Below are positions 8,835 to 24,421 of a stretch of 38,916 nt of DNA, in pieces. A model generated the notes under the pieces. It was not told the DNA's origin, did not search any database, and saw only the letters and a program-made list of their open reading frames with translations. The stretch covers positions 1-38,916 of the forward strand of contig JAFAKN010000634.1 of NCBI GenBank assembly GCA_019235415.1, given 5' to 3'. Origin of the DNA: Alphaproteobacteria bacterium. GTDB taxonomy: Bacteria > Pseudomonadota > Alphaproteobacteria > Reyranellales > Reyranellaceae. Position 1 is the stretch's first letter. Each line of letters begins with the position of its first letter. Position numbers and translations under genes: made by a program.

Positions 8835-8859
8835 GCGCCGCCCACAATGCGAAGCCCCA

Positions 8860-8930
8860 GTCATCCCGAGGCTGCAGGCCGAGGGATCCTTCCGGTTGCC
8901 TCAAGGATCCCTCGCTGCGCTCGCGATGAC
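8860..8930. repeat. Family A palindromic repeat (compact copy)
   Basis: GTCATCCCGAG at 8860-8870 faces CGCGATGAC at 8922-8930. The inner arms GAGGGATCCTT (8881-8891) and AAGGATCCCTC (8903-8913) are perfectly complementary over 11 bases. It sits between the convergent ABC exporter gene and the moxJ/xoxJ-type gene, where a bidirectional transcription stop or mRNA 3' shield would be useful. No T-run is present. Confidence 0.8.
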
Positions 8931-8941
8931 AGAGGCAAGAG

Positions 8942-9739
8942 CTATCGGCTCGGACGGTCGACGCGCGGCACGGCGTAGGCTGCGAGGATCGCGTCGATCT
9001 CGACACGGTGGCGCGCGATCGCCGCGTCCAGCTCGGTGCGGAGCGACGTCTCCTGCCGTGCGACGCCCATGGAGATGTCGAACACCATGGGAAGCCGCGG
9101 CCCGTCCAGCCATGGGGTCACCGGCGTCCATGCGAGCGGCACTGGTTCGCGCGCCGCGAAGTATGCCGCCTGCGGCCCCCACGCGATGGCGAGGTCGACC
9201 TCGCCTGCCGCTACCGCATTCACGATCGGCGCAGTCGGCGCCTCGCTCCGGTAGTCGCCGTAGATCATGTAGCCCTTCACGTTGCTCGTGATGCCGCGTC
9301 GGGCGAGTGCATGGGCCGGTGGCGTGTTTGCGCCGTCGTCGCCGATCATCTGCACGCCGATGCGCAGCGTCGTGAGGCGCGGGTCGTCGAACGAGGCAAT
9401 GTCGAGCCCATCCGACCGGCGTGTGACGAACACGTAGGTCGACCGGTAGTAGGGGCGGGTGGTCTGCAGCAGCTCGAAGTTGGCAGGCACGCCCATCACG
9501 ACGTCGCAAAGACCGGCCTTGATGGTGTTGCGCACGAAACCGCGTCGCTGCGCCCACCAAGTGTATTCCAGCTCGGCGTGCAGATCTTCGGCCATCAGCT
9601 GGGCGATGCGGTTCTCGAAACCGTCGCCCTTGGCATTGGAGAACGGCAAGTTGTTGGGATCGGCGCAGACCCTGAGCGACCCCGCCTCGGCAGGCACAGT
9701 CGCCACCCCTGCGAGCAGGAGCGCGGCCAGGAATCTCAT
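8942..9739 (-). CDS. Quinoprotein-dehydrogenase-associated periplasmic binding protein (MoxJ/XoxJ-like)
   Basis: This 265-residue periplasmic protein belongs to the SBP_bac_3-fold group always found near PQQ dehydrogenases. It has a signal peptide (MRFLAALLLAGVATVPAEA) and the group's signatures LRVCADPNNLPFSN, GFENRIAQLMAEDL, EYTWWAQRRGFVRNT and CDVVMGVP. In methylotrophs MoxJ/XoxJ help mature or activate the dehydrogenase rather than import a solute. It is the last of five genes transcribed away from the Crp/Fnr gene, and its ATG overlaps the stop of the ABC permease (ATGA). Its presumed partner is the PQQ dehydrogenase at 19745-21682. Confidence 0.88.
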   Translation of the reverse strand: MRFLAALLLAGVATVPAEAGSLRVCADPNNLPFSNAKGDGFENRIAQLMAEDLHAELEYTWWAQRRGFVRNTIKAGLCDVVMGVPANFELLQTTRPYYRSTYVFVTRRSDGLDIASFDDPRLTTLRIGVQMIGDDGANTPPAHALARRGITSNVKGYMIYGDYRSEAPTAPIVNAVAAGEVDLAIAWGPQAAYFAAREPVPLAWTPVTPWLDGPRLPMVFDISMGVARQETSLRTELDAAIARHRVEIDAILAAYAVPRVDRPSR

Positions 9740-10542
9740 GCCGCCCCTCCGGCCAGCTGCCGGCGCAGGATGCGGCCGCTGTCGTAGCGCCATACCGCGA
9801 GCGCCATGACCACGATCGCGGTTGCCGCCGTGACCCCGAGTGAAAGCGTATCGAGCTGCTCGTAGAGGGCGAAGCGGATCAGCTCGACGCCGTGGCTGAA
9901 CGGGTTGAGCCACGCCACGGCGGCGAGCACCGGATCGGCGTCGCTCAGCCGCCATAGCGGATAAAGCGCGGTCGAGGCGAAGAACATGGGGAAGATCACG
10001 AAGTTCATGACGCCCGCGAAGTTCTCGAGCTGCTCGACCATCGAGGAGACCAAGAGCCCGATCGCGCCCAGCATCAGGCCGGCGAGCACGACGGCGGGCG
10101 CGACATAGAGCAGGCCCGCGATCGGCGGACGGATGCCCCACAGCCAGGCGAAGGCGAGGAAGGCGTAGACCTGCGGCAGCCCGACGACGACACCGGAGAG
10201 CAACCGGCAGGTGAGCAGGTACCAGCGCGGCAGCGGGCTCACCAGCAGCACCTTCATGCTGCCCATCTCGCGGTCGAACACCATCGAGAGCGCCGTCTGC
10301 ATGGCATTGAACAGCAGGATCAGCCCGACGAGGCCGGGCACGATGTATTCTTCGTACAGCACATACGTCTGATACGGTGGAATGCGCGACAAGCCGAGCA
10401 CGGCGCGAAAGCCGGTCGCGAAGATCACCAGCCAGACCACCGGTCGCACCAGCGAGGCGAAGAAGCGGCTGCGCTGGCGCAGGAAGCGCAGGAACTCGCG
10501 CGTCACGATGCCGGCGAAGCAGCGAAGCCACAACGCGCTCAT
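9736..10542 (-). CDS. ABC-2 type permease of the PQQ-alcohol-dehydrogenase ABC system
   Basis: A 268-residue membrane protein with six hydrophobic segments and the ABC-2 pattern: FFASLVRPVVWLVIFATGF near 27-45, MVFDREMGSMKVLLVSPLPRWY near 85-107, and FPMFFASTALYPLWRL near 182. It matches the permease (PedC-like) that goes with PQQ-dependent alcohol catabolism and is thought to export or tolerate alcohols or their oxidation products. The ATG at 10542 overlaps the end of the ATPase gene by four bases. It acts with the ATPase just upstream; two copies of each would make a full transporter. Confidence 0.88.
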   Translation of the reverse strand: MSALWLRCFAGIVTREFLRFLRQRSRFFASLVRPVVWLVIFATGFRAVLGLSRIPPYQTYVLYEEYIVPGLVGLILLFNAMQTALSMVFDREMGSMKVLLVSPLPRWYLLTCRLLSGVVVGLPQVYAFLAFAWLWGIRPPIAGLLYVAPAVVLAGLMLGAIGLLVSSMVEQLENFAGVMNFVIFPMFFASTALYPLWRLSDADPVLAAVAWLNPFSHGVELIRFALYEQLDTLSLGVTAATAIVVMALAVWRYDSGRILRRQLAGGAA

Positions 10543-11255
10543 GCCGCTGCCTCCAGCCCGACCAGCCGCGCAAACCGCCGCGGTAGCGGTTCCCTCGCCG
10601 TCCTTGTCGTCCCATCGTCGACGATGCGGCCCTCGTGCAGCACGATGATCCGATCGCCGTCGGCAATCTCGTCGAGGAGATGCGTCGCCAGGAGCACGGT
10701 GCAGCCCGTCTCGCGGCATACCGCGCGCACCCGGTCGAGGATTGCCTTGCGGCTCGGCATGTCGAGCCCGACGGTGGGCTCGTCGAGCACCAGCAGGTCG
10801 ACCTCGTGCAAAAGGCAGCGCGCGATCTCGACTCGGCGGCGCTGGCCGCCCGACAGGGTGCGGACGAGGTCGCGCTTGCGATCGGCGAGCCCGCAGCGCG
10901 CCAGCTCGGCGTCGATGCGGCGGAACGCATCACGGCGCGACACGCCGTGCAGGGCGGCGTGGTAGGCGAGCGTCTCGGCGAGCGTGAGGTCGAGGTCGAG
11001 CGCCGGCTGTTGGAAGACGAAGCCGCAGCGGGCCAGCGCCCGGGTCCGCTCCTGCGGCAACGCGTGTCCCAGCACGCTCAGCGCTCCCGTCTGCAGCGGC
11101 AGCAGGCCGGCGATCAGCGAGAACAGCGTCGTCTTGCCCGCGCCGTTCAGCCCGAGCAGGACGACGAACTCGCCGCGGCCGACCGTGAAGCTCACCGCGT
11201 CGAGCGCCGTGCGCTTGTAACGATGGCCAAGGCCCTGGGTCTCGAGTGCGTTCAT
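10539..11255 (-). CDS. ABC transporter ATPase of the PQQ-alcohol-dehydrogenase system
   Basis: A 238-residue ATP-binding subunit with Walker A GLNGAGKTT near 35, a Q-loop in FVFQQPALDLDLT near 80, signature LSGGQRRR near 136, Walker B LLVLDEPT near 156 and the switch His in LLATHLLDE near 190. The sequence fits the PedB-like ATPase group found with PQQ dehydrogenases. ATG 11255 overlaps the beta-propeller stop codon (ATGA) and its own end overlaps the permease start, so the set is translationally coupled. It energises the ABC-2 permease at 9736-10542. Confidence 0.92.
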   Translation of the reverse strand: MNALETQGLGHRYKRTALDAVSFTVGRGEFVVLLGLNGAGKTTLFSLIAGLLPLQTGALSVLGHALPQERTRALARCGFVFQQPALDLDLTLAETLAYHAALHGVSRRDAFRRIDAELARCGLADRKRDLVRTLSGGQRRRVEIARCLLHEVDLLVLDEPTVGLDMPSRKAILDRVRAVCRETGCTVLLATHLLDEIADGDRIIVLHEGRIVDDGTTRTAREPLPRRFARLVGLEAAA

Positions 11256-12223
11256 GGCACGGAAACCACGCCCCATGGCGAGCGGCCGACGCCCAGCGAC
11301 TTCACCACGCGGTCGCTCTCCAGATCGAGGACGGAGATGTCGTTGCTGCTGCCGTTGGTGGTGTAGAGCCGCTTGCCGTCGGGCGAGAAGGCGAGGTTCC
11401 ACACGCGCTGGCCGACCAGGTGATAGCGCAGGACCTTGAACTGCCGGGCATCGATCTCGGCCACACGGGCCGACGGTCCCAGGGCCACGAAGGCGCGCTC
11501 GCCGTCGCGGGCGATCGCCACGCCCACGGCCTGCACCAGCTCCAAGGGCACGCCGGGCGGCGCGAAGTCGATGTGCGCCAGGATGGCGTGCGATCGCGCG
11601 TCGAGCACGCTCGCCGTGCCGCGCAACTCGGACGTTATCCAGACGTGCTTGCCATCGCGGGTGACCTGCGCGACCCGCGGCCGGGTGTCGACCAGCACGT
11701 TGTCGATCAGCTCCAGCGTCTTGCTGTCGATGAAGTGTGCCATGCTGGTGGTCTCGGAGGTGCACACCACGAAGGCGCCGTCGGGCGACACCGCCATGCC
11801 CTCGGGCTCGATGCCGACCGCAATGTCGGCCGTGATCTTGCGGCCAGCGATGTCGAGCACCGAGACCGTGTTGTCGTCCTCGTTGGCAATGTAAAGGCGG
11901 GCTCCGTCGGGCGAGACCGTGAAGCGCTCCGGGTCGGGACCCGAGGGCAGGTTTCCCGTCACCTTGCGCGACGCCACATCGATCACGTCGATACGATCGT
12001 CGTCGCCCAGCGCGACGTAGATCGTCTTGCCGTCGCCGCTCGCCTCGATGCCACGCGGCCGGCGGCCCACTGCAATGGTGGCGGCGACCGCGAGCGTGCC
12101 GCCGTCGATCACCGATACCGTGTTGTCCTGCTCGTTGCTGACGAAGATCGTCTCGGCGCGGGCGTCGGCCGCCGCGAGCACGACGGCCGCCATCAGCGTG
12201 GCCAGAGGCATCGCCTTGATCAT
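11252..12223 (-). CDS. Secreted YVTN beta-propeller protein of the PQQ catabolism cluster
   Basis: A 323-residue periplasmic seven-bladed propeller. It has a signal peptide (MIKAMPLATLMAAVVLAAAD, cut near ARA-ET) followed by repeated blades of about 40 residues with IFVSNEQDNTVSVIDGGTL, RLYIANEDDNTVSVLDI and RLYTTNGSSNDISVLDLE. This matches the PQQ-dependent-catabolism-associated propeller family that always travels with the PedB/PedC-like ABC genes. Its molecular role is not established. I start at ATG 12223 because it overlaps the preceding stop codon (ATGA); an ATG four codons upstream is also in frame. Confidence 0.88.
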   Translation of the reverse strand: MIKAMPLATLMAAVVLAAADARAETIFVSNEQDNTVSVIDGGTLAVAATIAVGRRPRGIEASGDGKTIYVALGDDDRIDVIDVASRKVTGNLPSGPDPERFTVSPDGARLYIANEDDNTVSVLDIAGRKITADIAVGIEPEGMAVSPDGAFVVCTSETTSMAHFIDSKTLELIDNVLVDTRPRVAQVTRDGKHVWITSELRGTASVLDARSHAILAHIDFAPPGVPLELVQAVGVAIARDGERAFVALGPSARVAEIDARQFKVLRYHLVGQRVWNLAFSPDGKRLYTTNGSSNDISVLDLESDRVVKSLGVGRSPWGVVSVP

Positions 12224-13413
12224 GGCCGCCGGCATTTGCTGTCGGCGGCGTCGAAGCCGAGCGAATCGAGGTTCGAGCCTTCGTGCAGGAACTCAGGCTG
12301 CGGCGAAACCGAGACCAGCATGCGCGGGCCCGCGATCAACACCGGCTGGCGCAGCTGGCCGTCCCATGGCCGGAAGCTCATGGACTCACCCTTGAAGCCG
12401 GCCAGTCGGAAATTCTTGCCCGTCATGAACGAGAGGATCGTATGAGCGTCGTTGCTCTGGGTGCGCAGCGCCGCTTCGCCGAGGGCACGAACGGCGAGCC
12501 ATGCCGTGTAGTCGCGCGATGTCATGGCTCGACGGGCTTGCTTGTGGAAGCGGCTCTGCAGCTGCAGCGCGCCCCACTGCTCCTGCACGGGGCTCCAGGC
12601 CGTTGCGATCAGGCCCTCAGTGCCGGCGACGGGTCGCGGTGCGGCGGTCCTGTACGGCAGCGAGTCGCCGAACTCGTCCGCCTCGTCGGCCACGATGAGC
12701 ACGTCGTGATCGGGTCCGCGCGTGGCGGCCGGTACCTCGGCCTGCAGGTTTACGTGGCCTGTGTCGGCGTGCGGATTGCCGGCCTCAAAGGTCCATCGCC
12801 TCTCGGCGACGATCCGCGCGCCGAACCGCGCGGCGGCACGACGGATCGCGGCGCTATAAAGCTCGTCCTCGGGATGCCGGCCGATCACCAGCAGCCAGCG
12901 GTTCCAACGCTTGACGGCAAGGTACTGCGCCAATGCATCGGCCGTCATGGCCCGGCTCGGTGCGACATGGAGAAGCGAGCCGCGACAGCCTTCATTGCGC
13001 AACTGATCGTCGGTGACGCGCGTGTTCAGCACCGTGACCCCGTCGGAGAGCGCCCCGAGTGCCGCCTGCAGGGCATCAGACGGCAGGTCGGCCACGATGA
13101 AGGCGGTCGCATCGCCGAGCTGGCGCACCGCGTCCGCGGCCGACTGGGGATCGGATACGACCCTCTCGGCGAGCACGAAAGCCTGGCCGGTGAACCGCCC
13201 GGTCGTGGCATTGTCGGACAAGGCGAGCCGCGCACCTTGGAGACCCTCGTCGTCGGCGTTGACGTCGAGCGGGCTGGCGGACTGGGTGTGGTGCTGATGC
13301 TCGGTCACGAATCCGATGACGACCGATTGCGGATTTGCCGCGACCGGCTCGCCAGCCTCGGCACTCACCCCGACCAAGCAGGTTACGGCAACGATGCTCC
13401 AGCGCAACCACAT
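12220..13413 (-). CDS. Periplasmic binding protein of the PQQ-alcohol-dehydrogenase ABC system
   Basis: A 397-residue type I periplasmic binding protein (branched-chain amino acid receptor fold) with signal peptide MWLRWSIVAVTCLVGVSAEA. The pattern SVVIGFVTEHQHH, then LQGARLALSDNATTGRFTGQ and FIVADLPSDAL near 130-140 is that of the substrate-binding member of the PQQ-dependent alcohol dehydrogenase ABC set. The C-terminal FRPWDGQLRQPVLIAGPRML is also characteristic. The ATG at 13413 shares one base with the stop of the Crp/Fnr gene (TGATG), which suggests co-transcription and coupling. The ligand is unknown. Confidence 0.88.
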   Translation of the reverse strand: MWLRWSIVAVTCLVGVSAEAGEPVAANPQSVVIGFVTEHQHHTQSASPLDVNADDEGLQGARLALSDNATTGRFTGQAFVLAERVVSDPQSAADAVRQLGDATAFIVADLPSDALQAALGALSDGVTVLNTRVTDDQLRNEGCRGSLLHVAPSRAMTADALAQYLAVKRWNRWLLVIGRHPEDELYSAAIRRAAARFGARIVAERRWTFEAGNPHADTGHVNLQAEVPAATRGPDHDVLIVADEADEFGDSLPYRTAAPRPVAGTEGLIATAWSPVQEQWGALQLQSRFHKQARRAMTSRDYTAWLAVRALGEAALRTQSNDAHTILSFMTGKNFRLAGFKGESMSFRPWDGQLRQPVLIAGPRMLVSVSPQPEFLHEGSNLDSLGFDAADSKCRRP

Positions 13414-14207
13414 CACGCAGTCGTTGCCGGCGAGAGCAGGGGCGGTCGCCCAGCCCCGGCAAGCTCTGCCGGAAAGCGCAGGTACCCGTTGTGAAAGCGC
13501 ACCCGGGCGGCGAGGGCTTGTGGATCGCGCAATTCGAGCCCGAGCGGCGTCAGGGCGAGAAAGCCGCTCTCGCGCATCGAGCGCAAGATGCGGTTGACGT
13601 AAGGAGCGGTGAGACCGGTGGCGTCCGCGACCTCGAGTTGGGTCAGAGGGAACGCCGCGCAGGCGATCGCCGGACCTCCGTCGGGATGCTGTCGGTGCGC
13701 GAGCTCGAGGAGAAGATGCCCAACGCGGCAATAGGCATCCCGGCGACCCAGACCGACCATGCGCTCACGCAAGAGGGTGCCGTTGCGACAAGCGAGAAGC
13801 GCAAGCAGGGACGTCAACGCCGGTGCGCTTCCGCTCAATTCCTGCAGCTGATCGAGAGACAGCCGCGAGATGCGGGCAGGCGTGAGCGTCGCAACGGAGA
13901 ACGTGGCGTTCCTGGTTGCGAAGAACTCCACGCCAGCGACGTCGCCTGGCAGCCAGAAGTTGAATACCTGCCGACCGCCGTCCGGCAGCTGCCGGAAGCC
14001 GGCAAGCCAGCCGGCATGCACGAGGAACAAGTCGCGGCAAGAGCGGCCCTCCTGCACAATTTTGCGGCGCGCGGGAAGTTGTTCGGTAGCGAACGCAAGC
14101 CGCTCGATCGATGCCCGGTCGCGCGGGCTGAGCGGCAAGTACCTTGCAAAGGCGCTCGAAATGTCCAACACGACTTCGCTCGGGATGCCATGACGTCCGT
14201 CGAGCAA
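13413..14207 (-). CDS. Crp/Fnr-family transcription regulator
   Basis: A cyclic-nucleotide-binding-fold sensor domain (YLPLSPRDRASIERLAF... to FWLPGDVAGVEFF) is followed by a dimerisation helix and a winged helix-turn-helix whose recognition region is QLEVADATGLTAPYVNRILR. There is no Fnr-type N-terminal Cys cluster, so it is not an Fnr oxygen sensor; the ligand is open. The frame contains no early ATG. I chose TTG 14207 because GAGGA lies seven bases upstream; the frame stays open to 14285. It is the first gene of the ABC operon and is divergent from coxB, so it is the obvious candidate regulator of both arms of the island. Confidence 0.85.
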   Translation of the reverse strand: MLDGRHGIPSEVVLDISSAFARYLPLSPRDRASIERLAFATEQLPARRKIVQEGRSCRDLFLVHAGWLAGFRQLPDGGRQVFNFWLPGDVAGVEFFATRNATFSVATLTPARISRLSLDQLQELSGSAPALTSLLALLACRNGTLLRERMVGLGRRDAYCRVGHLLLELAHRQHPDGGPAIACAAFPLTQLEVADATGLTAPYVNRILRSMRESGFLALTPLGLELRDPQALAARVRFHNGYLRFPAELAGAGRPPLLSPATTA

Positions 14208-14245
14208 GGCAGAATCCTCGTTGGTCTTGGATCGAATCGTTGAAC

Positions 14246-14258
14246 GTTGCAAAGCAAC
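14246..14258. promoter_or_regulatory. Short inverted repeat in the Crp/Fnr-cox divergent region
   Basis: GTTGC-AAA-GCAAC is a perfect 5-bp inverted repeat in the 194-base region between the Crp/Fnr start and coxB. A perfect AACTAGTT lies at 14307-14314. Either could be part of an operator serving both divergent operons, but neither matches a canonical Crp or Fnr site. Confidence 0.3.
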
Positions 14259-14401
14259 AGCAGTTCCGCTCGCACCGAGCAGCAAAGGTTGCGACGCTGG
14301 CCATTTAACTAGTTTGCCGTGTTGCCACTTGAGGGCGAGCCAAGGGCGGGGCGATCGTGGGCGACCTCGTCATCATCAGTCGCGAGCGGATACCGACTGC
14401 C

Positions 14402-15430
14402 ATGAACCGCATCTCCTGCGCCACAGCACTGGCGGTCGCCGTCGTTGCGGTGTCGGGGCCGGCGGCGCGCGCCGATGCGCCGATGTCGCTGTTCAGTGCC
14501 TTCAGCGACAAGGCGCGCTCGATCCTCAACCTCAACTACGCCTTGCTCGCGGTCTGCGTGATCGTTATCGCCGTGATCGGCGTGCTGATCGGCACCGGAC
14601 TGGCGCGGCCGCGTCTTCGTTTCCAGGGTGGCGGGGCCGGGGTGTGGCCCGTGTCGCGACCGCCGGGTGGGCTGCGCTGGATCTATTTCGGGCTGGCGCT
14701 CACGGCGTTGACGCTGCTGGGTTCGCTGGTCTGGAGCATGGCGGTGATCGCGCACGTCGCGGCGCCGCGCACCACGCCGGCCCTGACGATCGACGTGACA
14801 GGTCATCAATGGTGGTGGGAAGCGCGCTATGCGGCGACCATCCAATCGCGTCAATTCACCACCGCCAACGAGATCCACATCCCGGTCGGGCTGCCCGTCC
14901 ATCTTCGACTCAAGAGCGCCGACGTCATCCACTCTTTCTGGGTGCCCGCCTTGTCGGGCAAGACCGACCTCATTCCAGGCCAGGTCAACGAGACCTGGAT
15001 CGAGGCCGGCGAGCCCGGCGCCTATCGCGGCCAGTGCGCCGAGTATTGCGGCCTGCAGCACGCCCACATGGCGTTCTCGGTGATCGCCGATCCGCCGGGC
15101 GCCTTCAACGCGTGGTGGGACGCTCAGCTTCGGCCTTCGCCCCCGCCGACGGACGGTCCGGCGGTGGTCGGCCAGCAGGCCTTCGTCCGCCGCTGCGGCG
15201 CTTGCCATGCGGTTCTCGGCACCATGGCGGGCGGCATCTACGGACCTGACCTCACGCACCTCGCGCGGCGCACGTCGCTTGCCGCGGGCACGTTGCCGAA
15301 CACGCCTGGCCATCTCGCGGCGTGGATCGCCGATCCGCAGGGCCCGAAGCCCGGCAACAAGATGCCGCCGCTGGCGCTCAGCGGGCCGGAGCTCGTGTCG
15401 ATCCAAGCCTATCTCGCAACCCTGCAGTAG
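14402..15430 (+). CDS. coxB: Cytochrome c oxidase subunit II with CuA and C-terminal cytochrome c (caa3-like)
   Basis: This subunit takes electrons into the oxidase from periplasmic cytochrome c. The 342-residue protein has a signal sequence, two membrane helices near 42-66 and 90-118, then a cupredoxin domain with GHQWWWEARY near 134. The CuA ligands His177, Cys212, Glu214, Cys216, His220 and Met223 are all present (QCAEYCGLQHAHM). A fused class I cytochrome c follows, with CGACH at 265-269 and Met321 in NKMPP as likely axial ligand, the arrangement of caa3 oxidases. ATG 14402 starts the signal peptide; an in-frame GTG at 14357 is less likely. It opens the plus-strand arm of the island, seven bases ahead of coxA. 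Confidence 0.93.
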   Translation: MNRISCATALAVAVVAVSGPAARADAPMSLFSAFSDKARSILNLNYALLAVCVIVIAVIGVLIGTGLARPRLRFQGGGAGVWPVSRPPGGLRWIYFGLALTALTLLGSLVWSMAVIAHVAAPRTTPALTIDVTGHQWWWEARYAATIQSRQFTTANEIHIPVGLPVHLRLKSADVIHSFWVPALSGKTDLIPGQVNETWIEAGEPGAYRGQCAEYCGLQHAHMAFSVIADPPGAFNAWWDAQLRPSPPPTDGPAVVGQQAFVRRCGACHAVLGTMAGGIYGPDLTHLARRTSLAAGTLPNTPGHLAAWIADPQGPKPGNKMPPLALSGPELVSIQAYLATLQ

Positions 15431-15437
15431 GGAGATC

Positions 15438-17390
15438 ATGGTGACGGTCGCCGACTACAGCAGAGTGCCCGAGGTCACACCGGCCGATTACGGCTCGCCC
15501 TTGGCGGAGCGGCTCGAGACGCTGTGGGAGACCAAGCCCGGCCTCATCGGCTGGTTCGGCACGGTCGATCACAAGGAGATCGGCCTCCGCTACCTCGTAA
15601 CCTCGTTCGCCTTCCTGATCCTGGGCGGCATCGAAGCCGCCGTGATGCGCTTGCAGCTGTCGTGGCACGATCAGACGGTGCTGACGCCGACGCAGTACAA
15701 CGAGCTGTTCTCGATGCACGGCGTCACGATGATCTTCCTCTACGCCATGCCGGTGCTGTCGGGGTTCAGCAACTACCTGTGGCCGCTGATCCTGGGCTCG
15801 CGCGACATGGCGCTGCCGCGCCTCAATGCTTTCTCGTACTGGCTGTACCTGTTCTCCGGTCTGTTCCTCTACGCCGGCTTCATCATCGGCGCAGGGCCCA
15901 ACGACGGCTGGTTCAATTACGTGCCGTACGCCTCGAAGCCGTACAACCCCGGGCTCAACCAAGATTTTTACGCCCTGGGCTTCATCCTGTTCGGCCTGTC
16001 GCAGACGGTGGGCGGCATCAACTTCATGGTGACGGCGCTGCGCACCCGTGCGCCCGGCATGTCCATCAATCGCTTCCCGATGATGATCTGGGGAACGCTG
16101 ACCGCCTCGGCGGGCAACCTGCTCGCCATCCCTTCGGTCAGCCTCGCCTTCTTCATGCTGTGGACCGATCGACAGCTCGGGACGCACTTCTACAACGCGC
16201 CGGAAGGCGGCCAGCCGCTGTTGTGGCAGCACCTGTTCTGGATGTTCGGCCATCCCTGGGTCTACGCCATCGTGCTGCCCGCCATGAGCATGGTGTCGGA
16301 TGCCCTGCCGGTATTCTGCCGCCGGCCGCTGGTGGCGCAGACCGCCGTCGCATTGGCCACCGTGGTCACGATGATCATCGGGTTCGGCGTGTGGGTGCAC
16401 CACATGTTCGCCACCGGCCTGCCCAACCTCTCGATGTCGTTCTTCAACGCCGCCTCGCTGATCATCGTCGTGCCAAGCGCGATCTCGGTGTTCGCCTGGA
16501 TCGCCACGATCCGCACCGGCCGCTTCGTCCTTTGCACCGCCTCGCTGTTCTTCGCGAGCTTCATCTTCCTGTTCGTTATCGGCGGCGTGTCGGGCTTCCT
16601 CACCGCCGCGATCCCCGTCGACTGGCAGGTCACCGACACCTATTTCGTGGTCGGCCACATCCACTACGTGCTGATCGGCATCAACCTGTTCGCCGTGATG
16701 GGCGGCATCTACTTCTGGTTCCCCAAGATGACCGGCCACATGCTGAACGAACGGCTGGGGCGCTGGAACTTCTGGCTGATGTTTGCCGGCTTCAACCTCG
16801 GCTTTTTCCCGATGCACATCGCCGGCCTGCTGGGCATGCCGCGGCGCATCTACACCTTCCCCGACGGCGTCGGCTGGAACATTGTCAATCTCATCACGAC
16901 GCTCGGCGCCTATCTGTTCGCGATCGGGTTCGTGGTGCTGCTCGCGAACGTCCTCCTGAGCCGCAAGCACGGCGCAGTGGCGGGACCGAACCCGTGGGAC
17001 GCGGCCGGCCTCGAATGGTCGGTGCCCTCGCCGCCGCCGCCTTACAACTTCGTCGTGATCCCGACGGTCTCGAGCCGTCACCCCTTGTGGGAAGACCGCC
17101 TGCGCGAGACCGAGGGACATTCGTCGATCCACGAAGGCGCCGTGCTCGACGCCGACAAGGAGACGCTGGGTGTCAGCACCATGGATGCGATCCCCGACGT
17201 GATCCTCAAGATGCCGCACGATTCAGTGATGCCGTTCGTGCTGGCGCTCTGCATCACCGGAGTCTTCGTCGGCCTGTTGCTGCTGTCGCTCGTCGCCATC
17301 GGCACCAGCCTGGTCCTGGGTCTGGTGGCCGCTCTCGTCTGGCTGTGGCCGCGCGCCGAGCTCGGCCAGCGCACGGAGGCCGTGCCGTGA
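15438..17390 (+). CDS. coxA: Cytochrome c oxidase subunit I lacking the usual proton-channel residues
   Basis: This is the catalytic haem-copper subunit that reduces O2 to water. It has 650 residues, with twelve core helices and an extra C-terminal helix near 597-635. The low-spin haem ligands His94 and His409, high-spin haem His407, CuB ligands His272, His321 and His322, and the cross-linking Tyr276 are present. Asn112, Asp123 and Asn130 match the D-channel entrance of aa3 oxidases (N121, D132 and N139 in Rhodobacter). However, the Glu of the GHPEVY motif is Trp274 (GHPWVY), without the YS pair that replaces it in A2 enzymes, and the K-channel Lys in PTGIK is Ser350 (PSAIS). Pumping may therefore differ. 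ATG 15438 follows GGGAG; the end overlaps coxC (GTGA). Confidence 0.93.
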   Translation: MVTVADYSRVPEVTPADYGSPLAERLETLWETKPGLIGWFGTVDHKEIGLRYLVTSFAFLILGGIEAAVMRLQLSWHDQTVLTPTQYNELFSMHGVTMIFLYAMPVLSGFSNYLWPLILGSRDMALPRLNAFSYWLYLFSGLFLYAGFIIGAGPNDGWFNYVPYASKPYNPGLNQDFYALGFILFGLSQTVGGINFMVTALRTRAPGMSINRFPMMIWGTLTASAGNLLAIPSVSLAFFMLWTDRQLGTHFYNAPEGGQPLLWQHLFWMFGHPWVYAIVLPAMSMVSDALPVFCRRPLVAQTAVALATVVTMIIGFGVWVHHMFATGLPNLSMSFFNAASLIIVVPSAISVFAWIATIRTGRFVLCTASLFFASFIFLFVIGGVSGFLTAAIPVDWQVTDTYFVVGHIHYVLIGINLFAVMGGIYFWFPKMTGHMLNERLGRWNFWLMFAGFNLGFFPMHIAGLLGMPRRIYTFPDGVGWNIVNLITTLGAYLFAIGFVVLLANVLLSRKHGAVAGPNPWDAAGLEWSVPSPPPPYNFVVIPTVSSRHPLWEDRLRETEGHSSIHEGAVLDADKETLGVSTMDAIPDVILKMPHDSVMPFVLALCITGVFVGLLLLSLVAIGTSLVLGLVAALVWLWPRAELGQRTEAVP

Positions 17391-17992: not shown

Positions 17993-18005
17993 GGGAGGGC
18001 AGGAT

Positions 18006-18431
18006 ATGGCGCCGAACGCTTTTCCCCATCCGTCGCCGCAACGCGATCGGGCCTCGGCGCTGTTGCTGGCGTTGGGCTTCGCCACCGGGCCGGTGGTGCT
18101 GGCGCTGCTGCTCACCATCACCTACGCCTTGACGAGCTACCGGTGCTTCCCGGACGGCACACGGCTCGAGACGCCGCACGCCGGATGGAACTGGGTCTCG
18201 ACGGCCGTGCCCCTGATGTACGTCGCGGGCATCGCGCTCACGGCGATCGCCGCCTTGATCGCCTGGCGCCTTTGGCAACGCACCAAAGACGAGGGGCCAG
18301 GCGCGACGATCGAACTGGGCGAGGGGCGCACGCGCTTTCTCGGAGTCTGGGGCCTGATCACCAGCGCGCTGTTCATCGCCATCCTGGCCTTCGATCTCAT
18401 CAACACCTTCCTGGTGCCGACATGCGCGTGA
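18006..18431 (+). CDS. Small membrane protein of the oxidase cluster, unknown family
   Basis: A 141-residue protein with three predicted membrane helices, near 18-43, 66-88 and 113-136. It has a short loop, SYRCFPDGTRLETPHAGWNW, between the first two and ends FLVPTCA. I cannot assign it to a named family; it does not show the CoxD/subunit IV pattern. ATG 18006 has AGGGGAGGG upstream, and its stop overlaps the ctaG start, so it belongs to the cox operon. By position it is an accessory or fourth subunit of this oxidase, perhaps like CoxP of alternative rhizobial oxidases, which is inference. Confidence 0.75.
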   Translation: MAPNAFPHPSPQRDRASALLLALGFATGPVVLALLLTITYALTSYRCFPDGTRLETPHAGWNWVSTAVPLMYVAGIALTAIAALIAWRLWQRTKDEGPGATIELGEGRTRFLGVWGLITSALFIAILAFDLINTFLVPTCA

Positions 18432-19732
18432 CCAGGCTCGCGCCCCTGGCGTCGATCGGCGCCCTTTGCATCTTGCCGGCGCTTTGCACCTGGCCGGCAT
18501 GGGCCCATGGCGGCGATCACGAAGGTGTCGGATGGTCGGGGAATCCGGCGATCCTCGTGCCGATGATCATTCTCGCCATCTGGTATGTGCGAGGCGTTCA
18601 TCGACTGCGGATGGGCCGGCGGGGGCGGCCGCTCGTGGGAACCGGGCGGATCGCGGCCTTCGTGTCGGCGCTGCTGGCGGTCTTTGTCGCCCTGCTTTCT
18701 CCGATCGACGCGTGGAGCGAGGGGTTGTTTACGGCGCACATGATCCAGCATCTGGCGCTGATCGTCGTGGCGGCGCCGTTGTTCGCGTTGGCCGCACCGA
18801 CGCCAGTGCTGCTGGCGGGATTGCCACGCGGCTGGCGCCGCAAGGTGTTGCGGATTTGGCGTTGGCCGCCGGTGCGTGGCGCCGTCCACGGGCTGTTCCA
18901 TCCGGCGGTCGTATGGCTCGCGTTCTGCGGGACCATCGTCTTCTGGCACATCCCCGCACCGTACCGTTGGGCGTTGCGGGGCGGACCGCTGCATGCCGTC
19001 GAGCATCTGAGCTTCCTGCTGGCCGCCCTGCTGTTCTGGACCGTCGTGCTCGACCGCTCGCCGCGTCGCCGACTGGACTACGCCGCTACGCTGGTCTTCA
19101 TCGTCACCGTGGCGCTCCTAAGCGACCTGCCGGGCGCACTCATGCTGCTGGCACCGCGCCCGTTCTTCGCCAGCAGCGCCGCGGCCGCCGCCGCCTGGGG
19201 TCTCACGCCGCTGCAGGACCAACAGCTGGCCGGCGTCATCATGTGGGTGCCCATGAGCTTCGCCTTCATCGGCGCCGGGATCTGGGTCTTCTTGCGCTGG
19301 ATGGAGGCGGCGGAGCTCCAGGCCGAGCTGCAGGACGCGCGCTCAGTGCGGCGCACCAGGGTTGCCGCGGCGGCGGCGATGCTGCTCGCCGTGCCGTGTC
19401 TTGCGCTGCTGGCGGCGCGCCAGGCTGATGCGGCGTCACCTTCCGGGCCACAGGGCGATTCACGACGTGGCGCTCAGTTGATCGATCGGCTGGGCTGCGG
19501 CGGCTGCCACACGATTCCCGGCATCGACAACGCCAAGGGCCGTGTCGGCCCGCCGCTCACCGCCTTCGGCGATCGTCTGTACGTGGCGGGCATGCTGCCC
19601 AACACGCCGGACAATCTCGTGGCGTGGCTCGAGAACCCGCAGCGCATCGTGCCGGGCAACGTCATGCCCGTGCTCGGGATCGACGAAAGCGACGCGCGCG
19701 ACATCGCCACCTACCTCTTCACCCTGCACTAA
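18422..19732 (+). CDS. ctaG: CtaG-type oxidase assembly membrane protein fused to cytochrome c
   Basis: Residues 1-295 form a CtaG_caa3 domain. It has a signal-like start, the motif AWAHGGDHEG near 27-36, and helices carrying SPIDAWSEGLFTAHMIQHLAL near 93, HAVEHLSFLLAALLFW near 191 and SDLPGALMLL near 234. CtaG of this type helps form the copper-containing active caa3 oxidase. Residues about 340-436 are a class I cytochrome c with CGGCH at 359-363 and Met415 in GNVMPVLG. A further hydrophobic segment (313-333) joins the two and would place the haem in the periplasm. The fusion is unusual; CtaG is normally haem-free. It overlaps the preceding gene by ten bases. Confidence 0.88.
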   Translation: MRVTRLAPLASIGALCILPALCTWPAWAHGGDHEGVGWSGNPAILVPMIILAIWYVRGVHRLRMGRRGRPLVGTGRIAAFVSALLAVFVALLSPIDAWSEGLFTAHMIQHLALIVVAAPLFALAAPTPVLLAGLPRGWRRKVLRIWRWPPVRGAVHGLFHPAVVWLAFCGTIVFWHIPAPYRWALRGGPLHAVEHLSFLLAALLFWTVVLDRSPRRRLDYAATLVFIVTVALLSDLPGALMLLAPRPFFASSAAAAAAWGLTPLQDQQLAGVIMWVPMSFAFIGAGIWVFLRWMEAAELQAELQDARSVRRTRVAAAAAMLLAVPCLALLAARQADAASPSGPQGDSRRGAQLIDRLGCGGCHTIPGIDNAKGRVGPPLTAFGDRLYVAGMLPNTPDNLVAWLENPQRIVPGNVMPVLGIDESDARDIATYLFTLH

Positions 19733-19744
19733 GGGAGGCCCGCA

Positions 19745-21682
19745 TTGAGCATCCTGTCGCCATCGGCTCCTCGAATGACCAAGCGCAGGCGTAGCGCGCT
19801 GGGGCTGGTGCTGTGCGTGACCGGCTGGTCCGTGCTGTGGCTGCAGCCGCTGATCGGCATCTTCGCCGTTCCATCCCTCGGTGCGGCGACCGCGTTCGTG
19901 GTCGGCCTAGTGATCGGTGCGCAGGCGGCACAGTCGCAGGATCTCGCGACGCTGTCGCAGGACGACAAGCAATGGGTGATGGCGCCCAAGAATTACGCCA
20001 ATACCCGCTTCAGCGGTCTCGACCAGATCAATGCAGGCAACGTCGGCCAGCTCCGCCTTGCCTGGACCTTCTCGCTGGGCGATCCGCATGGCCAGGAGGC
20101 GGCACCCCTGGTCGTCAACGACACCCTGTACGTGGTCGGCCCGTATCCCAACAACGTGTTCGCGCTCGACGCCACCTCGGGCGAATTGAAATGGAGCTAC
20201 CGGCCGAATACGACGCCGTCGGCGCAGGGCGTCGCCTGCTGCGATGTCGTGAACCGCGGACTGGGCTACGACAACGGCAAGATTTTTCTGAACACGCTCG
20301 ACAATCACACCGTCGCGCTCGATGCCGCGACCGGCAAGGAGCTGTGGGTCGCGACGCTCGGCGACATCTCGCGCGGCGAGACCATCACCATGGCGCCGCT
20401 GGTGGTGAAGGGCAAGGTGCTGGTCGGCAACAGCGGCGGCGAGATGGGCGTGCGCGGCTGGGTGACGGCGCTGAACGAGGATGACGGCAAGATCGCCTGG
20501 CGTGCCTACGGTGCCGGACCCGACTCGGACGTGCTGATCGGGTCCGACTTCAAGCCATTCTACGACGAGTACAAGGGCAAGGACCTCGGCGTGGCGAGCT
20601 GGCCGGCCGACGCCTGGAAGAAGGGCGGCGCGACCATGTGGGGCTGGATCTCCTACGATCCCGAGCTGAACCTGATCTATTACGGCACCGCCAATCCCGG
20701 GCCGTGGAACGCAACGCAACGGCCGGGCGACAATCTGTGGACCGCGACCCTGTTTGCGCGCAATCCCGACAACGGCCAGGCGCGCTGGGCGCTTCCCCTC
20801 AATCCGCACGACGTGTTCGACCATGACGAGATCAACGAGACCTTGCTGCTCGACCTCGACATCGACGGCAAGCCGCGCAAGGTCGCCGTCCACGTCGGCC
20901 GTGACGGCTACATGTGGGTGGTCGATCGCGCCACGGGCGAAGCTCTGTCGGTCGAGCCCTACGACTACCTCAACGGCTACAAGGGCTTCGACTACAAGCG
21001 CGGGCGACTGATACCGAACGAGGACAAGTCCCCGAAGCTCGACAAGACCGTGCACGACATCTGCCCGACCGCGCCGGGCGCCAAGGACTGGCAGCCCTCG
21101 GCCTGGTCGCCGCGCACCAAGCTGATCTACGTGCCGCACCAGCATCTCTGCATGGACTGGAAGTCCTCGGAAGTGGGCTACATCGCCGGCACGCCGTTCG
21201 TCGGCGCCACGGTCGACATGTATGCCGGGCCCGGCGGCTATCGCGGCGAGTTCCTGGCGTGGGATCCCGTGCAGAAGAAGCGCGTCTGGCAGATCCAGGA
21301 GAACTTCCCGGTATGGAGCGGGGCGCTGGTCACGGCGGGCGATGTCGCTTTCTACGGGACAATGGATCGCTTCTTCAAAGCGGTTGATGCGCGCAACGGC
21401 AAGGTGCTGTGGCAGTTCCGCGGCGGGTCCGGGATCATCGGCCAGCCCGTGACCTACCAGGGCAGCGACGGCCAGCAGTACGTCGCGATCCTCGCCGGCG
21501 TCGGCGGTTGGTCGGGGGCCGTCGCCAACGCCGAGCTCGACCCGCGCGCCCGCAACGGCGCGCTGGGCTTCACAGGTGCGATGCAGGACCTGCCTGCCTA
21601 CACGACCGGCGGCAGCGAGCTTTTGGTGTTCGCGTTGCCCAAGGCGGGCGGCACGGAGGGAAGCAATGCGCCAGCCAAGTAG
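19745..21682 (+). CDS. PQQ-dependent (quinoprotein) alcohol dehydrogenase with lanthanide-type D-x-D site
   Basis: This periplasmic enzyme oxidises an alcohol or aldehyde with PQQ and passes electrons to cytochrome c. It is an eight-bladed propeller of 645 residues with vicinal Cys165-Cys166, metal ligands Glu233 (GGEMGVRGW) and Asn317 (TANPGPWN), catalytic Asp359, and Asp361 two residues on (FDHDE). The second Asp is the mark of lanthanide-dependent XoxF/ExaF enzymes; calcium enzymes usually have Ala, Ser or Thr there. No haem c domain is fused. TTG 19745 is chosen because GGGAGG ends six bases upstream. The N-terminus is oddly long, with two hydrophobic segments (near 18-42 and 47-62) before an AQA cleavage-like site. 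The substrate is unknown. Confidence 0.92.
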   Translation: MSILSPSAPRMTKRRRSALGLVLCVTGWSVLWLQPLIGIFAVPSLGAATAFVVGLVIGAQAAQSQDLATLSQDDKQWVMAPKNYANTRFSGLDQINAGNVGQLRLAWTFSLGDPHGQEAAPLVVNDTLYVVGPYPNNVFALDATSGELKWSYRPNTTPSAQGVACCDVVNRGLGYDNGKIFLNTLDNHTVALDAATGKELWVATLGDISRGETITMAPLVVKGKVLVGNSGGEMGVRGWVTALNEDDGKIAWRAYGAGPDSDVLIGSDFKPFYDEYKGKDLGVASWPADAWKKGGATMWGWISYDPELNLIYYGTANPGPWNATQRPGDNLWTATLFARNPDNGQARWALPLNPHDVFDHDEINETLLLDLDIDGKPRKVAVHVGRDGYMWVVDRATGEALSVEPYDYLNGYKGFDYKRGRLIPNEDKSPKLDKTVHDICPTAPGAKDWQPSAWSPRTKLIYVPHQHLCMDWKSSEVGYIAGTPFVGATVDMYAGPGGYRGEFLAWDPVQKKRVWQIQENFPVWSGALVTAGDVAFYGTMDRFFKAVDARNGKVLWQFRGGSGIIGQPVTYQGSDGQQYVAILAGVGGWSGAVANAELDPRARNGALGFTGAMQDLPAYTTGGSELLVFALPKAGGTEGSNAPAK

Positions 21683-22298
21683 GATCGCGCGTTCCCCGGG
21701 CGGCCAGGGCGTCGTGTGGAGCGTGGTCGCAATCGCAACGATGCTCGGCGCGTGGGACGCCTTGGCCCAGGGCCGGACCGGTTTGGCCGGGCAGGGCGAA
21801 CGGCCGAGCTATGCCAGTCGGGCCGAGGAGCTCTTGGCCGTACCGGTGACGGGCATCCTGCCGGGGGCGGTGCCTCCGCCGGAGAACCTCAAGAACCCCT
21901 TCGACCACGACCCAGCGGCCATCGAGCGCGGCATGCAGCACTTCATTGCCTTCAACTGCGTCGGCTGCCATGCGCCGAACGGCGCGGGCGGCATGGGACC
22001 CGCCCTCAGCAACAGCAAATGGCTGCACGGCGCAGAGCCCGCCAACATCTTTCTCTCGATCTACCAGGGGCGCAGCAACGGCATGCCAGCCTGGGGTAGC
22101 ACCTTGCCGCCGAACGTCATCTGGGAACTGGTGAGCTACATCCAGAGCATCAGCGAGGATCCCGACAGGGTCCACTTCGGCCAGACCATCTCGCGCCAGC
22201 CGCAGTCGCCGGCCATCGAGCAAGTGCCGGCGCAGGAGCTGCAAACCGCGACCCCCTGGAAGCACACCGAGCCGATCAGCAACGGTCACAAGCCATGA
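21666..22298 (+). CDS. Periplasmic cytochrome c, likely electron acceptor of the PQQ dehydrogenase
   Basis: A 210-residue monohaem class I cytochrome c with an N-terminal signal or anchor helix near 16-35. The haem-binding motif CVGCH is at 98-102 and the likely axial Met140 lies in NGMPAWG. About fifty residues of Pro/Gln-rich tail follow the cytochrome fold. ATG 21666 sits inside the end of the dehydrogenase gene, with GGAGGG just upstream, so the two are coupled. By position it is the XoxG/MxaG-like electron carrier between the dehydrogenase and the caa3-like oxidase. Confidence 0.9.
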   Translation: MRQPSRIARSPGGQGVVWSVVAIATMLGAWDALAQGRTGLAGQGERPSYASRAEELLAVPVTGILPGAVPPPENLKNPFDHDPAAIERGMQHFIAFNCVGCHAPNGAGGMGPALSNSKWLHGAEPANIFLSIYQGRSNGMPAWGSTLPPNVIWELVSYIQSISEDPDRVHFGQTISRQPQSPAIEQVPAQELQTATPWKHTEPISNGHKP

Positions 22299-22309
22299 GG
22301 AGGCGAGAC

Positions 22310-23095
22310 ATGCAGCGACGCCGACTTGCCTGCGCCGTGGGATGCGCCGTGATCGCCACGAGCGCCGCGTCCGCCTGGGCCGCCGACTGCCCGGTCAATC
22401 ACGACCAGCTTCAGCAGGCCTTGAAGCAGAGCGTCAAGCCGAGCGGCGGCCCCGGCAATGGCGGGCTCGACAACAACGAGTGGGCGGCCGTGGTGGCGCG
22501 CGACGGCAGCATCTGCGCCATCGCCTTCAGCGGCGGCAAGCCGGACGACCAGTGGCTCGGCAGCCGCGCCATCGCCGCCGAGAAGGCCAATACGGCCAAC
22601 GCGCTCAGCCTGCAGAAGTTCGCGCTCTCGACCGCCAACCTCTATGCCGGCACGCAGCCGGGCGGCCCGCTGTTCGGCCTGCAGACCAGCAATCCCGTGG
22701 CGACCGAGGTGCTGTACGCGGGCGACGCCAAGCAGTTCGGCGCCGCGAACGACCCGCTGGTCGGCAAGCACCTGGGCGGCGTCATCGTGTTCGGGGGTGG
22801 GCTCGCCCTCTACAACGGCCAAGACGTCGTGGGCGGCGTGGGGCTGAGCGGCGACACGTCATGCGCCGACCACAACATCGCCTGGCGCGTGCGCCAGAAG
22901 CTTGGCCTCGACAAGGTGCCGGGCGGCGCCTCGCCCGACCACAACGACGCGATCATCTATGACATCCAGCCGGACAAGACGAGCACCTCGGGCTACGGCC
23001 ATCCCATGTGCAACGGCCAGGAGGCGAAGATCGCGACCGAGCTGAAGGCGGGCATCGTGCCGGTCTGGAAGAAGGACATGGCGCAAGACAAATAG
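22310..23095 (+). CDS. Exported GlcG/HbpS-like (DUF336) protein
   Basis: A 261-residue protein with a signal peptide (MQRRRLACAVGCAVIATSAA, cut near AWA-AD). The mature part shows the GlcG/HbpS pattern: NNEWAAVVARDGSICAIAFSG near 54, SRAIAAEKANTANAL near 84, LFGLQTSNPV near 118 and the Gly-rich GGVIVFGGGLALYNGQDVVGGVGLSG near 156-181. Some members bind haem; others sit next to alcohol or glycolate oxidation genes with unknown function. A Cys pair (Cys183 in TSCADHN and Cys in HPMCNG) could form a disulfide. ATG 22310 follows AGGAGG by seven bases, directly after the cytochrome gene. It is the last gene clearly in the oxidation operon. Confidence 0.82.
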   Translation: MQRRRLACAVGCAVIATSAASAWAADCPVNHDQLQQALKQSVKPSGGPGNGGLDNNEWAAVVARDGSICAIAFSGGKPDDQWLGSRAIAAEKANTANALSLQKFALSTANLYAGTQPGGPLFGLQTSNPVATEVLYAGDAKQFGAANDPLVGKHLGGVIVFGGGLALYNGQDVVGGVGLSGDTSCADHNIAWRVRQKLGLDKVPGGASPDHNDAIIYDIQPDKTSTSGYGHPMCNGQEAKIATELKAGIVPVWKKDMAQDK

Positions 23096-23175
23096 CCTCG
23101 ACGCTGTGGGCCTTGCGAGCAACGTCGGCCTTTGTTGCCGGTTGCTACAGAGCGGGTTGCAAGGAGGTGGCGAGG

Positions 23176-24150
23176 GTGGCGCGGTCGCGATCGCAGGGCA
23201 ATGCAGCGACGTCCAAGCGGGTCGTCCATGTCGCGCTGGCCGGCAACGTGCTGGTCGCCGTGACGAAGTTCGTCGCCGCGGGGCTTTCCGGCAGCGCCTC
23301 GATGTTGAGTGAAGGCGTGCATTCGGCGATCGATTGCAGCAACGAGCTGCTGCTGCTCTATGGCTACCGCCGAGCGTCGCGGCCACCCGACCCGGTCCAT
23401 CCCTTCGGCTACGGCCGTGAGATCTATTTCTGGAGCTTCGTCGTGGCGCTGCTGCTGCTCACGCTCGGGGCCGGTCTGTCGATCTACGAGGGCGTGCGAC
23501 AGATCCGCCAGCCGCAGTCCCTCTCCGACCTTACCGTGAGCTACATCGTGCTGGCCGCCTCGGCCGTGTTCGAAGGTGCCTCATGGCTGACGGCCCTTCG
23601 CGCCTTTCGCGCCAAGAAGGGCGATTGCAGCTACTGGGAAGCCGTGCGGGAAAGCAAGGACCCGCCCTCGTTCATGGTGCTGTTCGAGGATTCGGCGGCC
23701 CTGATCGGTCTCGTCATCGCGGCCGCCGGTATAACCGCGGCGGACCGGTTCGCGATGCCGATCCTGGATGGCGTCGCATCCGTCATGATCGGCGTGCTGC
23801 TGGGCGTTGCGGCACTGCTGCTCGTGCGCGAAACCAAGGAGCTGCTGATCGGCGAGCGGGCCAGTCCGCGCATCAACGATTCGCTGGTGGCGCTCGCTCG
23901 CGAACAGCCCGGCATCGAGGACGCCAACGGAGCCGTCACCGTTCAACTTGCGCCCGATCAGATCGTCGCGACGCTCAGCCTCGAGTTCGAGGACGAGCTG
24001 CATACGCCGCAGATCGAGCAAAGCGTGCAATCGCTCGAGCACCGGATTCGCGAGCGGCATCCCGAAGTCGTGGCCTTGTTCGTGAAGCCGCAGACGCGCC
24101 GCACTTTCGAGCAGGCCCTCGCGCGAGGCGGGATCAGGAAAGCTCGCTAG
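23176..24150 (+). CDS. Cation diffusion facilitator (CDF) family transporter
   Basis: An inner-membrane metal/proton antiporter of 324 residues with six helices and a cytoplasmic C-terminal domain. The CDF metal site is seen as LSEGVHSAIDCSNE near 42 (His-x3-Asp) and FEDSAALIGLVIAA near 172. The HPFGYGREIYFWSF loop near 77 is typical. Start GTG 23176 follows AAGGAGG by eight bases. It lies 80 bases after the HbpS-like gene on the same strand, so it may be co-transcribed. A metal exporter beside a metal-rich oxidation system is suggestive, but the metal is unknown. Its stop overlaps the convergent gene's stop by three bases. Confidence 0.88.
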   Translation: MARSRSQGNAATSKRVVHVALAGNVLVAVTKFVAAGLSGSASMLSEGVHSAIDCSNELLLLYGYRRASRPPDPVHPFGYGREIYFWSFVVALLLLTLGAGLSIYEGVRQIRQPQSLSDLTVSYIVLAASAVFEGASWLTALRAFRAKKGDCSYWEAVRESKDPPSFMVLFEDSAALIGLVIAAAGITAADRFAMPILDGVASVMIGVLLGVAALLLVRETKELLIGERASPRINDSLVALAREQPGIEDANGAVTVQLAPDQIVATLSLEFEDELHTPQIEQSVQSLEHRIRERHPEVVALFVKPQTRRTFEQALARGGIRKAR

Positions 24151-24416: not shown

Positions 24417-24421
24417 GCGCA

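Follow-up and report, generated by a model that had tools for sequence, protein, structure and literature searches.

A 16.1-kb segment of a Reyranellaceae contig likely encoding a lanthanide-dependent alcohol-to-oxygen chain with a caa3-like oxidase

Can the oxidation of an alcohol and the reduction of oxygen be encoded, and inherited, as one piece of DNA? The question is raised by a locus in contig JAFAKN010000634.1 (assembly GCA_019235415.1) of an alphaproteobacterium from the family Reyranellaceae; all 38,916 nucleotides analyzed are called the window below. An initial annotation of this DNA, made from its letters alone, had described an alcohol-respiration island at 8942..24150, in which a pyrroloquinoline quinone (PQQ) dehydrogenase has a terminal oxidase of its own. 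Our analysis indicates that a segment of approximately 16.1 kb combines an XoxF-like PQQ dehydrogenase, a cytochrome c, a caa3-like oxidase assisted by the assembly factor CtaG, and a PedA1A2BC-like transporter, and that these likely constitute one lanthanide-dependent alcohol-to-oxygen chain. For its host, the segment would probably serve as a single transferable unit of alcohol respiration; arrangements of this kind have partly been described before. The direct observations behind this reading are the gene content and motifs, an island-free site in six congeners, the recurrence of the dehydrogenase-oxidase pair, and the agreement of the respective trees.

The window contains two divergent arrays, and every gene that had been named is present at its place, with support from curated NCBIfam models or Pfam (Table 1). 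The plus-strand array runs from coxB to a CDF transporter, and the minus-strand one comprises a Crp/Fnr gene and a five-gene set. The tight packing of the arrays is also borne out, as 9 of the 13 joins overlap with the chosen starts (4 of 8 on the plus strand, 5 of 5 on the minus strand), by up to 17 bases.

The segment 8789..24914 is missing from the congener G004 (locus L173), where the blastn alignment leaves only 41 unaligned bases, window positions 8788 and 24915 corresponding to positions 3520 and 3562. Six congeners have the flanking genes, which encode an ATP-binding cassette (ABC) transporter on the left (7074-8834) and a monooxygenase on the right (24935-26050), opposite one another at a distance of less than 10 kb; besides G004, these are G012, G020, G047, G014 and G054, with a gap of 777 to 9714 bases. 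No island genes were found in the six gaps; the sole tblastn matches (E up to 1e-4) arise from the ATPase, which hits the native ABC gene. Two small frames (24147-24476 and the cupin-like 24495-24902) are likewise missing at the congener site, and therefore the end of the insert is placed near 24914. Thus, the genes of the initially proposed island stand, while the inserted segment is somewhat longer, about 8789-24914. A dehydrogenase of this kind is present in two of the 65 genomes of the genus, the window's own and G014, where it is 55% identical and located at another place, next to oxidase genes of its own. The host is probably related to Reyranella: of the 120 homologues listed for the right-flank monooxygenase, the nearest with a genus name come from Reyranella (85%), Enhydrobacter (83%) and Vineibacter (80%).

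Given the 768 contigs and 4.55% estimated contamination of this genome, a binning or assembly chimera might be suspected, but it is highly improbable: both flanks lie on the same contig in the order seen in congeners, with DNA identity of 76-78% for the ABC gene, 84-86% for the next stretch outwards and 84-85% for the monooxygenase gene, and the GC content is 65-69% throughout. An integrase- or tRNA-borne island was rejected, since the window contains no tRNA and no integrase was seen among the scanned genes, which cover part of its frames. No words of at least 10 bases are shared between 8790-9100 and 24001-24935. The interval between the ABC and monooxygenase genes (window 8834-24935; L173-L178), where six congeners have other DNA, 0.04 to 9.7 kb long, is a possible insertion hotspot.

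Comparison of the dehydrogenase with relatives of known structure yields 4MAE, the XoxF of a verrucomicrobial methanotroph, as the best match (628 bits). It is followed by 4tqo (558 bits), annotated as a methanol dehydrogenase large subunit, by entries named XoxF (543 and 526 bits) and by other methanol dehydrogenases (448-513 bits). Quinoprotein ethanol dehydrogenases score far lower, with 349 bits for 6zcv (PedH) and 295 bits for 1flg. Because of this order of scores the enzyme is of the XoxF/MxaF grade; a PedH/ExaA-type ethanol dehydrogenase was rejected on the same scores, which also set the enzyme apart from that of the Pseudomonas putida ped cluster.

The motifs FDHD, GGEMG, TANPGPW and ACCDVV of the dehydrogenase align to 4MAE, with the Glu, the Asn, the Asp-x-Asp and the adjacent Cys pair all kept. 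The Glu and Asn are metal ligands, and in Asp-x-Asp, the mark of lanthanide enzymes, a further Asp lies two positions beyond the catalytic one; 4tqo has Asp-Tyr-Ala there, with Ala at the second Asp. The motif is found in 20 of 21 aligned dehydrogenases, the exception being L171 from the congener G014 (Asp-His-Ser). The enzyme, initially called a PQQ alcohol dehydrogenase, does belong to the PQQ family, but is better read as an XoxF-type enzyme with the lanthanide motif and predicted lanthanide dependence. The only features pointing in the direction of XoxF3 are the gene neighborhood and the acidobacterial relative L101 (two pieces, 58 and 62% identical). Genes for PQQ biosynthesis are absent from the window, as had been stated, yet contig C436 of this genome carries pqqB, C, D and E, each scoring above its NCBIfam cut-off.

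To what extent such a dehydrogenase is tied to such an oxidase can be seen from a survey of CoxA loci in GTDB genomes, in which the best 80 of at least 595 confirmed loci were checked for every island gene (two or three of them may come from one genome, and many are truncated by contig ends). Tryptophan replaces the D-channel glutamate of CoxA in 64 of these 80 loci, called Trp-type below. A dehydrogenase match of at least 300 bits is present in 16 of the 80, and among the 14 loci where CtaG shares the strand and each flank spans 5 kb or more it is present in 10. The pairing recurs in Proteobacteria, Acidobacteria and Gemmatimonadetes. Moreover, the four closest other dehydrogenases, found in a class sample of 289 genomes (G200, G131 and G197, 61-63% identical) and in the 65 genomes of the genus (G014, 55%), all adjoin coxBAC and CtaG. 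Among more distant dehydrogenase loci (41-50% identity; 20 selected from 35 listed), one stands beside coxBAC-CtaG, namely that of G337. At this locus (L190; G337:C73:9000-28999) a dehydrogenase 44% identical to that of the window lies beside a cytochrome c, coxBAC and a CtaG-cytochrome c gene, and its oxidase shows 45% identity; the pairing may thus not have had a single origin.

The histories of the two proteins are partly congruent. Maximum-likelihood trees of the dehydrogenase and CoxA from 18 Trp-type loci with a dehydrogenase have 7 of 15 splits in common, whereas 5000 label shuffles gave 0.24 on average and never more than 3; for quick trees, the path distances correlate with r 0.47 (p 0.0005). 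Descent of the organisms is not a simple cause of this agreement, as 4 of the 7 common splits unite different classes or phyla (taxa as labelled). One joins Rhodanobacter and an acidobacterial contig (L035, L042), another Lysobacter and Sphingomonas (L079, L082), a third Sphingomonas and gammaproteobacterial bins, and the fourth adds a Beijerinckiaceae bin to this last group. Misbinned metagenome loci could, however, obscure these cross-taxon splits. In the dehydrogenase tree, the window groups with L029, L163 and L165 (99/97), and with L029 and L163 alone at 71/66. The CoxA data are compatible with a group of the window, L029 and L163 (approximately unbiased test, p-AU 0.247), and also with L165 added (0.092). 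Chance adjacency as the whole story was rejected, since the trees agree and the four closest other dehydrogenases all stand with the oxidase.

The proposal of a dedicated oxidase is thus partly supported, namely by the recurring pair, the trees and the closest relatives; it is not new (see below), and the flow of electrons is predicted from the genes. As for inheritance as a unit, the trees and the six island-free congeners support it for the pair, and the divergent half, whose PedC and PedA1 genes stand outside the recurring unit, does not follow.

A number of observations, given in this and the next two paragraphs, weigh against one inherited chain. In the available DNA, 49 of the 64 Trp-type loci lack a dehydrogenase of at least 300 bits, and 15 have it; among the 42 Trp-type loci whose flanks extend over 7 kb or more in either direction, it is lacking in 32 (many of them in Burkholderiaceae) and present in 10. 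When three loci from another oxidase clade (L101, L164, L171) are added, the tree correlation is lost (r 0.07, p 0.24), the dehydrogenases of these loci having a different oxidase; oxidases are thus exchanged. The window's neighbors differ between the dehydrogenase and CoxA trees, the placement in the latter being weak; the neighbors suggested by the quick CoxA tree are rejected by the dehydrogenase data (p-AU 1e-5). The flank pair is together in only 6 of the 16 congeners with a monooxygenase of at least 83% identity, while in 9 its members are on different contigs and in G016 they are 3.5 Mb apart on one contig, so the insertion site is not visible in every congener. Finally, the host has at least four canonical COX1 genes; the four aligned here carry the canonical Glu and Lys, and the COX1-family places on C360, C164 and C544 lie outside this alignment.

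Accordingly, the oxidase could serve the general pool of cytochrome c as an alternative terminal oxidase, with the dehydrogenase as its frequent, non-obligate neighbor and with mixing of electrons in the pool. The 49 dehydrogenase-free loci agree with this, as do Burkholderia, Methylobacter and Nitrosospira loci, which carry the cox genes alone. Such an oxidase is possible, if somewhat unlikely, given the dehydrogenase in 10 of the 14 CtaG-linked loci, the agreement of the trees and the location of the genes in one array with overlaps or short gaps. By the criterion of the initial annotation itself, cox genes that in relatives stand mostly without the PQQ genes would refute its reading: in the available DNA they do so over the whole clade, but not in the CtaG-linked subset.

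The divergent array raises a separate question. Its models TIGR03863, TIGR03866, TIGR03864 (just below the cut-off) and TIGR03861, the last of which carries the name PedC in NCBIfam, follow the PedA1A2BC order of substrate-binding protein, propeller, ATPase and permease. According to a report on Pseudomonas putida, pedA1A2BC, with identical gene order, is its lanthanide transporter (PMC12997753). Most simply, the minus-strand array is a predicted lanthanide-uptake set with a XoxJ/PedG-like gene. The PedA1-like gene is present in only one of the 65 genomes of the genus, the window's own, and relatives of PedC, 76-77% identical, are located at other genome positions in 4 of the 64 congeners, in G012 beside a more distant PQQ dehydrogenase. 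Hence the two halves of the island may have separate histories and sources. Moreover, within the flanks covered, none of 21 other loci with oxidase and dehydrogenase has a PedC or PedA1-like gene, and two (L037, L041) have the propeller; conversely, PedC lies near the dehydrogenase, without oxidase genes, in 7 of the 20 more distant dehydrogenase loci. The host also has a second PQQ dehydrogenase, 42% identical, on contig C29. All this would fit two independent units side by side, a cox-XoxF one and a Ped-type lanthanide uptake serving another PQQ dehydrogenase of the host, such as that of C29. We assign some, though limited, probability to this explanation, because a single divergent control region is common to both halves, a XoxJ-like gene closes the minus-strand array, and both lie inside one inserted segment.

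Further features of the putative chain concern proton transfer in the oxidase. When CoxA is aligned with solved mycobacterial and quinol oxidases, its FGHPWVY stands opposite their GHPEVY (FGHPEVY in 6adq), so that Trp274 replaces the D-channel Glu, and its PSAIS opposite PTGIK or PTGVK, so that Ser350 replaces the K-channel Lys. None of the 64 Trp-type loci keeps this Lys: 62 have Ala, Ser, Gly or Thr there and two have Gln. The active-site Tyr is kept, judged by its alignment column, and so are, with rare exceptions, Asp and Asn of the D-channel; the histidines appear to be kept, judged by eye. Because the Trp served to select the rows of a further, 65-row alignment, from which L087 and L092 were also taken out by hand, its 65 of 65 for Trp is no evidence, and the counts given are those of the 80-locus survey. 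Two actinobacterial CoxA (L089, L091) have Asp for the D-channel Glu and Gln for the K-channel Lys. The dehydrogenase-oxidase cluster located elsewhere in G014 (L171; G014:C33:1-16000) has a CoxA that keeps the D-channel Glu, with Val at the K-channel Lys.

Type A1 is defined by Glu278 and type A2 by a tyrosine there, while the A-type K-channel includes Lys354 and others (Paracoccus numbering; PMC3084760). By the Glu278/Tyr and Lys354 fingerprints, the present clade is, at the level of these residues, neither A1 nor A2. The loss of channel residues as such is not new, since PMC8239418 describes variants of both channels and, within family A, a K-channel that was lost repeatedly. COX operon type a-II is filed under A1 in PMC6431628. 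It is conceivable, though quite unlikely in our estimation, that the clade represents a third design of A-family cytochrome c oxidases, with Trp for the D-channel Glu and a small residue for the K-channel Lys. One branch of it would then have reached several phyla as an oxygen-reducing terminus reserved for lanthanide alcohol dehydrogenases, with pumping altered or nil, and would in this genome have joined a lanthanide importer in a single mobile chain from alcohol to oxygen.

The same residues allow the oxidase to be seen as a low-yield electron sink with little or no pumping, the module serving to remove alcohol or aldehyde rather than to conserve energy. Consistent with this, both replacements extend over all Trp-type loci, the histidines and the active-site Tyr look kept, and the four other COX1 genes of the host are canonical. 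We consider the sink doubtful, as B- and C-type enzymes without D-channel residues use an alternative K-channel (PMC3084760, Table 2), and one residue lost is no proof that a channel is lost.

Returning to a single alcohol-to-oxygen chain, it would operate as follows. The PedA1A2BC-like transporter would move lanthanide over the inner membrane, and the periplasmic dehydrogenase, loaded with PQQ from host genes elsewhere, would oxidize methanol or another primary alcohol. Two electrons would then pass to the cytochrome c encoded at 21666-22298, further to the cytochrome domain and CuA of CoxB, and finally to the heme-copper center of CoxA, whose CuB would be supplied by CtaG; that they go to this oxidase is suggested by the gene order, recurrence and tree agreement. 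Oxygen would be reduced with an altered proton path, perhaps with fewer protons pumped, since CoxA is without the canonical Glu and Lys of the two channels and a different proton route is predicted. The divergent Crp/Fnr protein would control both arrays.

The simple form of the dedicated-oxidase idea is not new, because such clusters were reported in 2014 and 2024. COX operon type a-II often holds PQQ dehydrogenases related to MxaF (Degli Esposti 2014, PMC4013037). Its COX1 of 630-670 amino acids has a COX4-like C-terminal extension and its COX3 has five helices; in the window, CoxA has 650 residues and a C-terminal extension, CoxC has 201 residues, and the dehydrogenase is present. The consulted text names neither PedA1A2BC nor loss of the channel Glu and Lys, but ABC transporter/permease and regulator symbols in the legend of its Fig. 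3 make such neighbors possible. The XoxF3 systems (PMC10875860) include CoxI-III, CtaG, CytC, XoxG and XoxJ, with a small protein encoded between CoxIII and CtaG and, in the figure legend, a propeller of the YncE type, the same kinds of genes as in the window. The small protein has about 110-130 amino acids there and 141 here, and the XoxG counterpart in the window is recognized by position alone, its MoxG score being below the cut-off. Those systems come from Acidobacteria, Gemmatimonadetes and Verrucomicrobia and have NRAMP or TonB genes, unlike the alphaproteobacterial window with its PedA1A2BC, HbpS-like and CDF genes. The P. putida ped cluster resembles the window in the pedA1-A2-B-C order, a lanthanide-type PQQ dehydrogenase, a cytochrome c and the periplasmic protein PedG, but the accessible text (PMC12997753) names no oxidase gene in it, and its regulators are PedS2/R2 and AgmR.

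What seems to be new is that transporter, dehydrogenase and oxidase stand together, and that this oxidase clade has lost both channel residues. In the literature searched, with most subscription journals outside the search, we found neither this combination with a PedA1A2BC set nor a description of dehydrogenase-linked oxidases in which both channel residues are replaced, and recognized nothing on the loss of the Glu (now Trp) and Lys in the clade. If the reading is correct, lanthanide-dependent alcohol respiration, from metal uptake to oxygen reduction, could be gained in one step without reliance on the resident chain, which would bear on the spread of methanol oxidation by non-classical methylotrophs. 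Moreover, the conserved loss of both textbook channel residues with a seemingly kept active site would provide a natural test of the purpose for which these residues are needed.

The features of the segment are listed in Table 1. The likely starts are 15438 for coxA, 17387 for coxC, 18422 for CtaG and 19775 for the dehydrogenase, those of the open reading frames in the initial annotation being the first possible ones.

Table 1. Genes of the two divergent arrays and the candidate operator (window coordinates; scores in bits).
Feature	Position	Strand	Evidence and remarks
MoxJ/XoxJ/PedG-like periplasmic protein	8942..9739	-	TIGR03871 (MoxJ_2) 308, cut-off 212; last gene of the divergent operon
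PedC-like ABC permease	9736..10542	-	TIGR03861 367, cut-off 241
PedB-like ABC ATPase	10539..11255	-	TIGR03864 286, just under cut-off 302
PedA2-like PQQ-associated beta-propeller protein	11252..12235	-	TIGR03866 440, cut-off 287
PedA1-like substrate-binding protein	12220..13413 (start inferred from frame)	-	TIGR03863 447, cut-off 414
Crp/Fnr-type regulator	13413..14285 (start possibly ~14175)	-	PF13545, PF00027; first gene of the minus array
Perfect palindrome GTTGC-AAA-GCAAC (GTTGCAAAGCAAC), candidate operator	14246..14258	none	Near the divergent gene starts; control region
coxB, CuA subunit II with a cytochrome c domain fused at its C-terminus, caa3-like	14402..15430	+	TIGR02866 152, cut-off 148; PF00034
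coxA, 650-residue subunit I with C-terminal extension	15438..17390	+	PF00115 471; TIGR02891 641, below cut-off 671
coxC, short subunit III, 201 residues	17387..17992	+	PF00510; 4-base overlap with coxA
141-residue membrane-type protein between coxC and CtaG	18006..18431	+	Homologues in the same place at many loci
CtaG (CuB assembly factor, Caa3_CtaG) fused to cytochrome c	18422..19732	+	PF09678 178, PF00034
XoxF-like PQQ dehydrogenase, lanthanide-type Asp-x-Asp (FDHD)	19775..21682	+	TIGR03075 631, cut-off 480
Periplasmic cytochrome c, predicted likely electron acceptor of the dehydrogenase	21666..22298	+	PF13442; MoxG model 32, below cut-off 148
HbpS-like protein	22295..23095	+	PF03928 41
CDF cation efflux transporter	23167..24150 (start uncertain)	+	TIGR01297 129

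The Crp/Fnr regulator scores 60 bits with the FixK model, below its cut-off, and likewise misses the Fnr cut-off. A repeat search for its operator found none, and the exact palindrome near the divergent gene starts, which comes from a pattern search, is a candidate only. This palindrome is the sole exact match in the window, while with one mismatch allowed three are found and 1.62 expected.

The 141-residue protein between coxC and CtaG has no Pfam or NCBIfam match. No CDF transporter match of at least 100 bits was found at any of the 80 oxidase loci, and homologues of the HbpS-like protein lie near the oxidase in L038, L041, L101 and L165. Outside the island, at window positions 31805-36673, a frame with a thiamine pyrophosphate enzyme domain stands beside a pyridine nucleotide-disulphide oxidoreductase with 4Fe-4S domains.

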